Shown here: in pieces, positions 6,477-32,712 of the stretch
Numbering within the stretch: position 1 is the stretch's first letter
How the letters are laid out: every line of letters begins with the position of its first letter
Virus record (IMG/VR): IMGVR_UViG_3300032322_002926
Location: 1 to 40,205 of that record
DNA: 40,205 nucleotides
Strand: one strand, 5' to 3'
Origin: a virus
Made by a program: the position numbers and the translations under genes
Notes under the pieces: generated by a model
What the model saw: only the letters and a program-made list of their open reading frames with translations
Told to the model about the DNA's origin: nothing
Databases searched by the model: none

Positions 6477-8048
6477 ATGGCATCAAAAAGTGGGGGTTCT
6501 TTTGGGACTTTCGCTCGCTCTGAAGACTTCGGTCCCGCAAGAGTAAAACCAATTCGCACTGAATTTTCCAGGGGTTCAGTGCCAGATTCTATTTACGCAA
6601 CAAACAGAGAATCTGCCTGGTCTCGTTGGCGGCGTGGATTTGAGCTTTATTGCAATACCATTGGCATTGTTGAAACATATACGTACCCCTTTGATTACGC
6701 AATTCCCTTGCCTCCTGGAACCGTAATCCCCCCAGGCTCTAATCCACCCAAAATTCCGGGGATCTTTCAAGGATTTCCCACGTCGAATAAAGAGTTGGGT
6801 ATGCACTGGGCTGGCGTGAGAGTAGCAGGTAGTTTGCGCTTTGATAATGTTCGTGACAGCACAGGAAGCCCGTCTGCTATTGCCTCTGTAACGGAAGACC
6901 AGGATTATTGGTATGTGCAGTTAACGGGCAGCTGGAGTGCGCTGACCCCTCTCCCAGCACCGCTTTATATCAAACCCGTTGGTCCGATTCCGGCTCAGTA
7001 TCCAATTAACGGAGAAATTCTGGAAGATCGAATTGTTTCCGTTGGGGGTACTCCCATTAACTCTGAAACAATAAACCCCGCCACACAAACTCGCTACGGT
7101 TACGTTCAAGCAGTCTTGGTTTCCACAGACGAGGTTAACGGAATTTTAAAACTGCAAAAACAAGGTTCTGTCGAGTCCACCCCAGATGGTGCCCTAACAA
7201 CACCTGCAACACGTCCTCCGAATGTTGGACGGTACCTAATGACAGGAACGCGATATTGCTGCTCTTGTCAGGATTTTACGCGGCGAGATTACGCTTATAT
7301 GTTTGGTCTGGGCAATGGAAACCAAAAACTTTTCCCTCGTACCAAGGTTTCAACAGTGAAGCCCGGCAGGTATGAAATTATGACTCTCAATGGACGTGTT
7401 GATAATAGTGCCATGACTAGCGCAACGGTTAATCGCGATATGCAGGTTGTTTCTCCTGCAGCAGAATATAATGTTCCTCCAACCGTCACACCAAACACCT
7501 CGACAGTCCCTGGAACCCTAAGAGACAATCCTGGTGTATTTAGAGATTTTGGTAGAACTTATCTAAGGAATACTCCACTTCCCTCACTCGAAGGTGCACG
7601 GGCTGAAGGTCCCGTTTTGTTCGAAGATTACACCACTGTTCGAAATCCAGATGGCTCCTTTACTATTACATCACTCACTGACAACTGGAGTCCCCTGTTA
7701 GATGAGTTGCGTTATTGCAAACACATTTACTGTTTAAAATTTAGTGAGAAAGTATTTCCACCAGAACCTTCCGACATTCCTGTAGAGATGGGAAGCATTG
7801 CCGCGTGGGAAGAAAAACTGGTTGCAGATTCGTCTCGCGAAACTCGACGGGCTGTTTATGACGTGGCAATAAAAGGTCTGTCCATGATGGATGTGCCTCC
7901 TTATAATTGCCAGGCTCCAATGATGATGCCAATGATGCAAAAACTATTTAATGTCCCTTCTACTTTTGTGCGCATGAGTGGTTTCACCATGTACGATAAA
8001 AACGGAACGCCATATGTTCCTTCTCAGGGTGGAGTCCCAGCAGTTTAA
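6477..8048 (+). CDS. Large structural protein with a split SWIM-like Cys/His motif
   Basis: A 523-residue protein. The N-terminal half looks like a virion beta-domain (P-I-P-A-Q-Y-P-I-N-G-E-I-L-E-D-R-I-V-S-V). At residues 261-267 it has C-C-S-C-Q-D-F and at 413-422 Y-C-K-H-I-Y-C-L-K-F. Together these match the two halves of a SWIM zinc finger (CxC...CxH), but about 149 residues lie between them, far more than the usual short spacer. The C-terminus is Met/Pro rich. It overlaps the next ATG by one base. Probably a tail, adsorption or baseplate component; zinc binding is inferred. Confidence 0.55.
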   Translation: MASKSGGSFGTFARSEDFGPARVKPIRTEFSRGSVPDSIYATNRESAWSRWRRGFELYCNTIGIVETYTYPFDYAIPLPPGTVIPPGSNPPKIPGIFQGFPTSNKELGMHWAGVRVAGSLRFDNVRDSTGSPSAIASVTEDQDYWYVQLTGSWSALTPLPAPLYIKPVGPIPAQYPINGEILEDRIVSVGGTPINSETINPATQTRYGYVQAVLVSTDEVNGILKLQKQGSVESTPDGALTTPATRPPNVGRYLMTGTRYCCSCQDFTRRDYAYMFGLGNGNQKLFPRTKVSTVKPGRYEIMTLNGRVDNSAMTSATVNRDMQVVSPAAEYNVPPTVTPNTSTVPGTLRDNPGVFRDFGRTYLRNTPLPSLEGARAEGPVLFEDYTTVRNPDGSFTITSLTDNWSPLLDELRYCKHIYCLKFSEKVFPPEPSDIPVEMGSIAAWEEKLVADSSRETRRAVYDVAIKGLSMMDVPPYNCQAPMMMPMMQKLFNVPSTFVRMSGFTMYDKNGTPYVPSQGGVPAV

Positions 8049-24377: not shown

Positions 24378-24539
24378 ATGAAGGTCGAAAGGAACCCACA
24401 GATACGTGTGAATATCTGCTGGGAAGTTGGAGACGAAAAAAAATGTGTGACGCTGTCCAAAGAGGAAGCATACGTCACACGTAAATGGATTGAAGAGCAG
24501 GGTGGATGTGTATATTGGTTTTCTCCAGTTGATCATTAA
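24378..24539 (+). CDS. Very small hypothetical protein
   Basis: A 53-residue protein starting 3 bases after the hydrolase stop. It has a strand-helix look (I-R-V-N-I-C-W-E-V-G-D-E, then S-K-E-E-A-Y-V-T-R-K-W-I-E-E) and ends C-V-Y-W-F-S-P-V-D-H. Its stop overlaps the end of the HNH gene on the other strand by 4 bases. It reads as real coding sequence but matches no family I know. Confidence 0.5.
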   Translation: MKVERNPQIRVNICWEVGDEKKCVTLSKEEAYVTRKWIEEQGGCVYWFSPVDH

Positions 24540-25009
24540 ATACAAGCTAAACGCAAACGAGCTTTTTCCAGGGCCTCAATTGCTTCTTTTTCGGTTTTAA
24601 AATAACCAACTTGTTTGGTGGCTAATTTAACTTTCCAACGGTTTCTACAAGGCATGTAGAAATAACATCCTTTAGGATTCTGAACTCTTTTTTGTTTTCT
24701 TACGTTTTCTGAAACCGTTAACAGTTGCAAATTTTCAATACAGTTATTATTTCTGTTGTCATCAATATGATCAACTTCATAGCCATCAAGGAGTGTGTTC
24801 CCATGCCAAATCCAAACTAGATTATGAACTTTATAGCTTTTTTCTTGATATCTAATATCTGAATAACCACTGACCCGAGAAAATCTTCCTGCTTTTATTC
24901 CTTTTGTTCCGTCTTTTTTAATCCAATAAAGACTACCGTTTTCATATATAAACAAGTTTTTTACTTGCTCATATGTCATTGAATTTCTAGATTTGTTTTT
25001 GAGCTTCAT
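24536..25009 (-). CDS. HNH homing endonuclease with AP2-like DNA-binding domain
   Basis: A 157-residue protein. The N-terminal half has small strands (L-Y-W-I-K-K-D-G-T-K-G). Residues 75-100 carry the HNH core: Y-E-V-D-H-I-D-D-N-R-N-N-N-C-I-E-N-L with His81 and Asn residues. The C-terminal 45 residues (R-N-R-W-K-V-K-L, Y-F-K-T-E-K-E-A-I-E-A-L) are an AP2-type DNA-binding fold. It is AT-rich compared with its neighbours, as in recently gained mobile genes. It lies alone between a plus-strand gene end and a terminator, a free-standing position. Confidence 0.9.
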   Translation of the reverse strand: MKLKNKSRNSMTYEQVKNLFIYENGSLYWIKKDGTKGIKAGRFSRVSGYSDIRYQEKSYKVHNLVWIWHGNTLLDGYEVDHIDDNRNNNCIENLQLLTVSENVRKQKRVQNPKGCYFYMPCRNRWKVKLATKQVGYFKTEKEAIEALEKARLRLACI

Positions 25010-27453: not shown

Positions 27454-27797
27454 CAGCCCCACTCCTCATAATCCTGTGCCCACGGTGATTTTTGTGGCTT
27501 CCTCGGTGGCTGGAGACACGGAACCAGCTCCCTTCTGTTGTCGTTATCAACATTTGGGTGCGCGTGCTTGATCCCATGGTGATCGGGACACTGTCCAGTG
27601 CGCAAGTAATAGACCACTCGGTGAGCCATGTACACCTCATTGTCGACGGAAACCATGTAGAAGCCGCTGCCCTTGTCTTTTCTTTCGACGAACCTCCCAG
27701 TTTTCCTGATGCGCAGGGCACTGGGGTGCTCGTCCGTCAGCTCCAGCTTTTCTTCCAGTGCCCAGAGGGGTGGCATCTTCTTGTAGTTGTGCGGCAT
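27453..27797 (-). CDS. HNH-like protein
   Basis: A 114-residue protein. The central segment A-H-R-V-V-Y-Y-L-R-T-G-Q-C-P and H-H-G-I-K-H-A-H-P-N-V-D-N-D-N-R-R-E-L resembles HNH endonucleases with a D-H-I-N-G-x-x-x-D-N-R-x-x-N-L core, but the order of His and Asn differs from the consensus and the last Asn is Glu. It could be a diverged or inactive HNH. The start M-P-H-N-Y was chosen for its family-like N-terminus; it lies 17 bases from the large inverted repeat. Confidence 0.55.
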   Translation of the reverse strand: MPHNYKKMPPLWALEEKLELTDEHPSALRIRKTGRFVERKDKGSGFYMVSVDNEVYMAHRVVYYLRTGQCPDHHGIKHAHPNVDNDNRRELVPCLQPPRKPQKSPWAQDYEEWG

Positions 27798-27813
27798 TGG
27801 GTGACGTGTGCGC

Positions 27814-27992
27814 AAAACACACAATACACTTAATTTTACTTAAATATAGAGCTCGGTACATTTTCGTCAAAATGTAGTCGCTTATTGTGTGTTTCTCACT
27901 TCTGTCTCATAAGACGCACAATAAACACCTACATTTTCGCCAAAATGTACCGCGGCTCTACGTTAGATAGAAACGGATGTATTGTGTGTTTT
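27814..27992. repeat. Large nested inverted repeat, candidate origin or control region
   Basis: Two arms of about 78 bases (27814-27891 and 27915-27992) are imperfect reverse complements. Paired blocks in order: AAAACACACAATACA (27814) with its exact complement (27978-27992), TAGAG, GGTACATTTT, AAAATGTA, TTATTGTG. Spacers of 17-18 bases between the outer blocks are kept in length but not in sequence. Each arm itself contains a smaller palindrome, ACATTTT(CGNC)AAAATGT. There is no ORF across it. It lies upstream of the minus-strand gene at 27797 and after the terminator at 28061. Confidence 0.8.
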
Positions 27993-28060
27993 CCGCACAT
28001 CTGCCCCAGTTTCTGCCCCTCCCCACTTACTTGAGACACAACCTGAGACAACTTGGCAAT
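27993..28060. other. Remainder of the non-coding gap, with two TGAGAC repeats
   Basis: Between the inverted repeat and the terminator lies a C-rich stretch and two close copies of TGAGACA (28032 and 28044). The same GTCTCA/TGAGAC word is seen at 27903 and as a palindrome at 32701. No gene is seen. Confidence 0.35.
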
Positions 28061-28090
28061 AAAAAACCGCCCTCTCGGTGGAGAAGGCGG
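28061..28090 (-). terminator. Rho-independent terminator (minus strand)
   Basis: On the minus strand CCGCCTTCTC, a CACC loop, GAGAGGGCGG (one wobble), then TTTTTT. It ends the replication-block transcript about 40 bases after the glycosyltransferase stop. Confidence 0.88.
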
Positions 28091-28129
28091 GGGACGGGCA
28101 ATGTTTTTGTGCCTTAGTGCGGCACGAAT

Positions 28130-32700: not shown

Positions 32701-32712
32701 GTCTCATGAGAC
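32701..32712. repeat. Perfect 12-bp palindrome GTCTCATGAGAC
   Basis: It lies just after the stop of the small gene at 32714-32866 and before the start of the gene at 32622. It has half-sites like those at 27903, 28032 and 28044. Possible protein-binding site or chance. Confidence 0.4.

Follow-up and report, generated by a model that had tools for sequence, protein, structure and literature searches.

A 180-bp inverted repeat between a glycosyltransferase gene and two small genes, ORF1 and ORF2, is a real, conserved regulatory dyad in relatives of cyanophage S-EIV1. The comparisons of sequence described here suggest, with a probability of roughly 55%, that the repeat serves ORF1 and ORF2 as their promoter-operator and that this operon is autoregulated by its own products. 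ORF1, a degraded HNH-type homing endonuclease, would bind four copies of a short box. Two of the boxes flank a predicted promoter, so that the binding of ORF1 there would block transcription, perhaps with the DNA looped or the two modules of the repeat paired. ORF2, a degraded protein of the I-PpoI type, may recognize palindromes in the arms, one of which covers the -35 element. The regulatory output would be repression or a switch.

The stretch of DNA that was analysed (the window) is the whole IMG/VR record IMGVR_UViG_3300032322_002926, with a length of 40,205 bp. It is a partial genome related to Synechococcus phage S-EIV1 (KJ410740; 79 kb, circular), and the primases of the two are 61% identical. 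Neither a terminal repeat nor a tRNA was found in the window, and a search of the phage collection found no relative of it at the DNA level. Seventy-four relatives were identified by their primase, further loci were added through searches with ORF1 and ORF2, and the set contains 84 non-redundant intergenic regions. S-EIV1 relatives are common among environmental viral contigs. As far as could be found, there are no studies of gene control in them, and the literature searched does not mention S-EIV1 together with an inverted repeat.

Organization of the inverted repeat

The gapped self-complementarity score of positions 27,807-27,999 is 158, compared to a maximum of 64 in 1000 sequences obtained by dinucleotide shuffling of these bases. 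The best inverted repeat in 40 shuffled 20-kb stretches also scores 64, and the second-best inverted repeat in the window scores 60. When folded as single-stranded DNA, the repeat has a z-score of -12.3. All of the sequence blocks that the first-pass annotation had placed at positions 27,814-27,992 are present there. The two arms that it described exist, and each is a module of 82 bp rather than 78 bases (Table 1). Its matched blocks were found as well; however, AAAACACACAATACA and TTATTGTG are not separate blocks, as both correspond to one box, which therefore occurs in four copies.

Within each module, a box with the motif AAAC-N4-AATR is followed by a spacer rich in T and by a palindrome, which reads TACATTTTCGNCAAAATGTA in the window; another copy of the box, in inverted orientation, completes the module. 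The two modules are inverted relative to each other around the central palindrome GTCTCATAAGAC, so that the repeat includes four boxes, two 20-bp palindromes, and the central palindrome. In the window, the identity between the arms is 1.00 for the outer box, 0.86 for the palindrome, 0.79 for the inner box, and 0.43 for the spacer, in agreement with the earlier claim that the blocks are kept whereas the spacers are not. The gap described as gene-free extends over positions 27,798-28,129 if ORF1 starts at the ATG at 27,797; the longest mechanical ORF, which starts from the TTG at 27,824, would overlap the outer box.

Table 1 Features of the inverted repeat and the adjoining genes in the window
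Feature	Position	Strand	Remarks
ORF2, 223 aa	26782..27453	-	I-PpoI / His-Me-finger-like; Arg/Lys in place of the catalytic His
ORF1, 114 aa	27453..27797	-	HNH_3-like; I-HmuI-like AF2 model; apparent loss of metal-site residues
Promoter-arm module, 82 bp, adjoining ORF1	27814..27895	-	Comprises outer box, -10 element, palindrome enclosing the -35 element, and inner box
Outer box AAAACACACAATA, adjoining the start of ORF1	27814..27826	+	
Sigma-70-like promoter	27843..27870	-	TTGACG (27870-27865) N16 TATATT (27848-27843); reads into ORF1
Arm palindrome TACATTTTCGTCAAAATGTA	27857..27876		
Inner box GAAACACACAATA (minus-strand reading)	27883..27895	-	
Central palindrome GTCTCATAAGAC	27904..27915		TCTYATRAGA recurs at the dyad centre in many relatives
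Mirror module, 82 bp	27911..27992	+	Promoter-like pair of comparable quality absent
Inner box AAGACGCACAATA	27911..27923	+	Most diverged of the four copies
Arm palindrome TACATTTTCGCCAAAATGTA	27930..27949		
Outer box AAAACACACAATA (minus-strand reading)	27980..27992	-	
Intrinsic-terminator-like hairpin	28067..28090	-	Ends the glycosyltransferase unit

Upstream of the primase operon, at 32,701-32,712 of the window, the central palindrome recurs in perfect form (GTCTCATGAGAC). This copy was rejected as a second operator because it is absent from that place in relatives. A search of viral_contigs with the palindrome as the pattern identified three contigs (L005-L007), none of them a primase relative, and these matches were taken as chance. 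In Rfam, no match reached gathering score; the only hits were models of miRNA precursors that scored far under their cut-offs, as any long hairpin would be expected to give.

Promoter and terminator

The -35 element of the predicted promoter in the window falls inside the arm palindrome. In 52 of 59 haplotypes, the better promoter-like pair belongs to the ORF1-side arm; the two arms tie in seven, and the mirror arm is never the better one. A terminator-like hairpin separates the glycosyltransferase gene from the repeat in 29 of 33 loci, where 1.8 are expected. The candidate sites and the promoter-like pair overlap in the repeat, which is directly followed by ORF1 and then ORF2. The terminator upstream and the promoter-like pair in the ORF1-side arm indicate that transcription of ORF1 and ORF2 most likely begins in the repeat, where the promoter has sites on either side. 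An operator, with a promoter in one arm, a terminator just upstream, and ORF1 adjacent, is thus the best fit of the three roles proposed in the first-pass annotation, which were a replication origin, an operator, and a recombination site. Against it, the mirror module, which lacks a promoter, is not obviously needed in an operator, and the repeat persists in phages without ORF1.

Conservation of the repeat in relatives

In most loci of the 74 primase relatives, the best inverted repeat occupies the same place, after the genes for SAM decarboxylase and glycosyltransferase. The repeat is significant (z > 5 relative to shuffles) in 59 of the 84 non-redundant loci, a count over phages that are mutually related and not independent. 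Some of the misses reflect the cutting of the region or weaker symmetry, and loci L037, L038, and L042 contain the four boxes although the score test failed. The distances between boxes are constant within groups of relatives. The boxes are separated by 69, 25-28, and 69 bp in most relatives, by 51, 23-28, and 52 bp where the arm is 18 bp shorter, and by 58, 55, and 58 bp in L017. Lack of conservation in relatives and an assembly chimera were examined as circumstances that could undermine the first-pass annotation; the repeat is kept in relatives, and the claim survives.

Among the loci that contain ORF2 and lack ORF1, the repeat reaches z > 5 in 11 of 13, and AAAC-type box sets occur in none of the 13. 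Several of these phages have outer boxes of the form TGCAGACTTT in place of the AAAC type. Upstream of ORF2 in L155 and L163, which lack ORF1, the outer boxes are TGCAGACTTTGGGG, not of the AAAC type, but the dyad centres, TCTCATGAGACGC and TCTTATGAGACGC, respectively, are kept. In L183, L184, and L186-L188, also without ORF1, the repeat upstream of ORF2 contains two or three tandem 13-bp iteron-like units (for example, TGTCGCCCAAAAC and GGTACGCCCAAAT). Another repeated motif, ACGACACCTCCAT, is arranged as a dyad upstream of ORF1 in L023 and L066.

Concerted change of boxes and its association with ORF1

The core of the box varies between phages, and the four copies in one phage change together. 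The similarity of the cores of the two outer boxes is 3.39 of 4 within a phage and 1.97 between phages (permutation p = 0.0002). Similarity within genomes exceeds that between genomes for every pair of copies (p = 0.0002 each), with weaker agreement within a phage for copies at the diverged inner position. The identity of the outer-box core between arms is 0.88 within phages and 0.50 between phages; the corresponding values for the spacer are 0.57 and 0.45. The architecture kept in relatives and the concerted change of the box letters give good support to paired protein-binding sites under selection, as had been proposed from the window alone.

The phages of loci L015 and L046 differ by a natural switch of boxes. 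Their primases are 99% identical, their glycosyltransferases and ORF2 proteins 98%, and their SAM decarboxylases also fall within 98-99%. All four boxes are changed (CCCGGAAT/CACACTAT), the DNA between the boxes is nearly unchanged, and the ORF1 proteins are 73-75% identical. ORF1 is the only clearly divergent protein of the syntenic core, some very short ORFs aside; the tail and structural genes vary as well. Locus L162 combines the boxes and the N-terminal part of ORF1 of L015 with the ORF1 C-terminus of L046. Loci L016 and L046 differ in their palindromes and ORF2 (88% identical) on a background of 97-98%; their boxes are almost the same, yet ORF1 differs by about 20%. In L164, ORF1 is 94% like that of L018, but the boxes are quite different and resemble those of L046, which shows that box and ORF1 are not perfectly matched. 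Either specificity depends on a few residues, with differences at positions 34 and 40, or the mismatch is recent. In an exploratory ranking of ORF1 alignment columns against the boxes, residues 41 and 34 come first (r = 0.34 and 0.31).

In partial Mantel tests, the boxes are correlated with ORF1 (r = 0.47, p = 0.001), and the value for ORF2 is r = 0.02. The spacer between the boxes (r = 0.59) and the palindromes (r about 0.6) also track ORF1, and therefore plain linkage explains part of the association between box and ORF1. The correlation of the palindromes with ORF2 is not significant overall, and L016 and L046 are the only clean pair. The natural switches, together with the missing AAAC boxes in loci without ORF1, suggest that ORF1 is the reader of the boxes and, less firmly, that ORF2 is the reader of the palindromes.

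It is unlikely that the repeat is a replication origin, in which the boxes would be iterons for an initiator such as the prim-pol/SF3 protein, ORF1, or ORF2. In favour of an origin, the repeat is present once and, in nearly all relatives, follows the prim-pol/helicase gene at a distance of about 1.8 kb downstream, its iteron-like repeated sites are arranged as a dyad, and tandem 13-bp repeats are found within the repeat of some phages without ORF1 (L183-L188). SaPI elements have an iteron origin with a co-specific Rep protein. For geminiviruses, Rep and iterons are described as co-specific, and close relatives have different iterons (PMC12548392). The boxes resemble such origins in that short repeated sites vary among closely related members, as does a cognate protein. 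However, the replication proteins of these phages do not change with the boxes: the primase-helicase, polymerase, and SSB are 99% identical between phages with different boxes. This disfavours the prim-pol/SF3 helicase, the protein that the first-pass annotation had linked to an origin, as the reader of the boxes, a role that it is unlikely to have. The GC skew suggested as a check does not point at the repeat, since strand-corrected minima lie -19 to +4 kb from it and are near it only in the L015/L019 clade; this scatter speaks neither for nor against an origin there. The promoter and terminator layout accounts for the position of the repeat without an origin.

A role chiefly as a DNA structure, with arms extruded as a cruciform or as two hairpins and with boxes that covary only to keep the pairing, appears very unlikely. 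The fold is indeed very strong, and the outer boxes are its most complementary part. Nevertheless, an outer box and its direct copy, the inner box of the other arm, agree within a phage (3.13 of 4, compared to 1.98 between phages; p = 0.0002), so that structure alone is insufficient. Furthermore, the box ends AAAC and AATR are mostly kept across phages and are not free to vary, the spacers are poorly paired, and the many changes in the boxes of L015 and L046, with very few between them, are unlike slow compensatory drift.

ORF1 and ORF2 resemble homing endonucleases

The PF13392 (HNH_3) profile matches 18 of 26 ORF1 members at E ≤ 0.1, with a best value of 1.3e-5; the match of ORF1 from the window (E = 0.0099) is below the cut-off, and that of the L017 contig is over it. 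The closest fold to the AF2 model of ORF1 (pLDDT 86) is I-HmuI (probability 0.93, E = 0.12), and SMAD MH1 is a weak fold match. His78 and Asn87 are mostly kept in the alignment. In nearly all members, the Asp that precedes the HNH His and the last Asn, before Leu91, are replaced, by K77 and E90 in the window; the roles of these residues are those known from I-HmuI. ORF2 contains the zinc-loop motif C..C..NPLH. The PF05551 profile weakly matches 10 of 29 ORF2 members (best 0.0045), and I-PpoI is matched in sequence at E = 0.44 and weakly in fold at E = 2.2. All aligned members have Arg or Lys at the position of the general base His98 of I-PpoI, except that of L076 (VTHTC). In L017 and L076, ORF1 and ORF2 form one fused gene, and four more loci are flagged as fusions. 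Judged by the missing catalytic residues, both proteins are apparently without catalytic activity.

The window contains a separate HNH_3 gene at 24,536-25,009 on the minus strand, which retains the complete HNH motif (DH..N..NL) and probably encodes a free-standing active endonuclease. A second relative of ORF1, 40% identical, is located elsewhere in the same contig in L056 and L070 (1627-1839). In S-EIV1, ORF2 is a full-length open frame (L082:14691-15368; KJ410740 7027-7704, minus strand). Its annotation covers only the C-terminal 146 aa (AHV82135), and two antisense ORFs (AHV82136/137) are called over or beside its 5' half.

The membership of both proteins in homing-endonuclease-like families, and ORF1 alleles that look exchanged between otherwise near-identical phages, might indicate active enzymes that cut the repeat in competing phages. 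This is highly improbable given the replaced residues of the two active sites; moreover, intact-looking sites adjoin each phage's own allele, and the repeat is kept where ORF1 is absent. Neither PF16684 (protelomerase) nor PF00589 (tyrosine integrase) has a match in the window, six relatives, or S-EIV1. The recombination site of the first-pass annotation, and with it an N15-like tos or attachment site, was rejected for lack of these enzymes.

An autoregulated operator could belong to an immunity-like specificity system, a possible but doubtful extension, in phages in which no integrase was seen. Two catalytically dead homing endonucleases of one operon would recognize two families of sites that are interleaved in the dyad operator of that operon, and box types specific to an allele would switch as a set between near-identical phages. 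Phages that infect the same cell could then disregard or repress the operon of the other according to box type.

Comparison with known systems

The operator of the intron endonuclease I-TevI of phage T4 overlaps the promoter from which the enzyme itself is expressed; I-TevI binds this operator and cleaves it poorly (PMC2988022). The proposed working of the repeat, as an autoregulatory operator over its own promoter, is alike, although the repeat does not belong to the I-TevI case itself. That enzyme, of the GIY-YIG type, is active and has a single operator, whereas here HNH- and I-PpoI-like proteins have apparently lost catalysis, and four boxes and palindromes form a 180-bp dyad. S-EIV1 shares the gene order primase, SAM decarboxylase, glycosyltransferase, repeat, and ORF2 with the window. 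However, its dyad is shorter (7832-7968), it has neither ORF1 nor AAAC boxes, and its ORF2 is annotated only as a fragment.

The natural combinations of boxes and ORF1 provide a directly testable case of a DNA-binding protein and several sites changing specificity together. If the repeat is an operator, ORF1 and ORF2 represent homing endonucleases that became regulators within a phage. SMAD MH1, AP2/ERF, and WhiA are domesticated homing endonucleases that serve as regulators, in which the nuclease fold was kept for DNA binding and catalysis was lost. Those regulators are cellular, whereas here two such proteins would be encoded in one phage operon.
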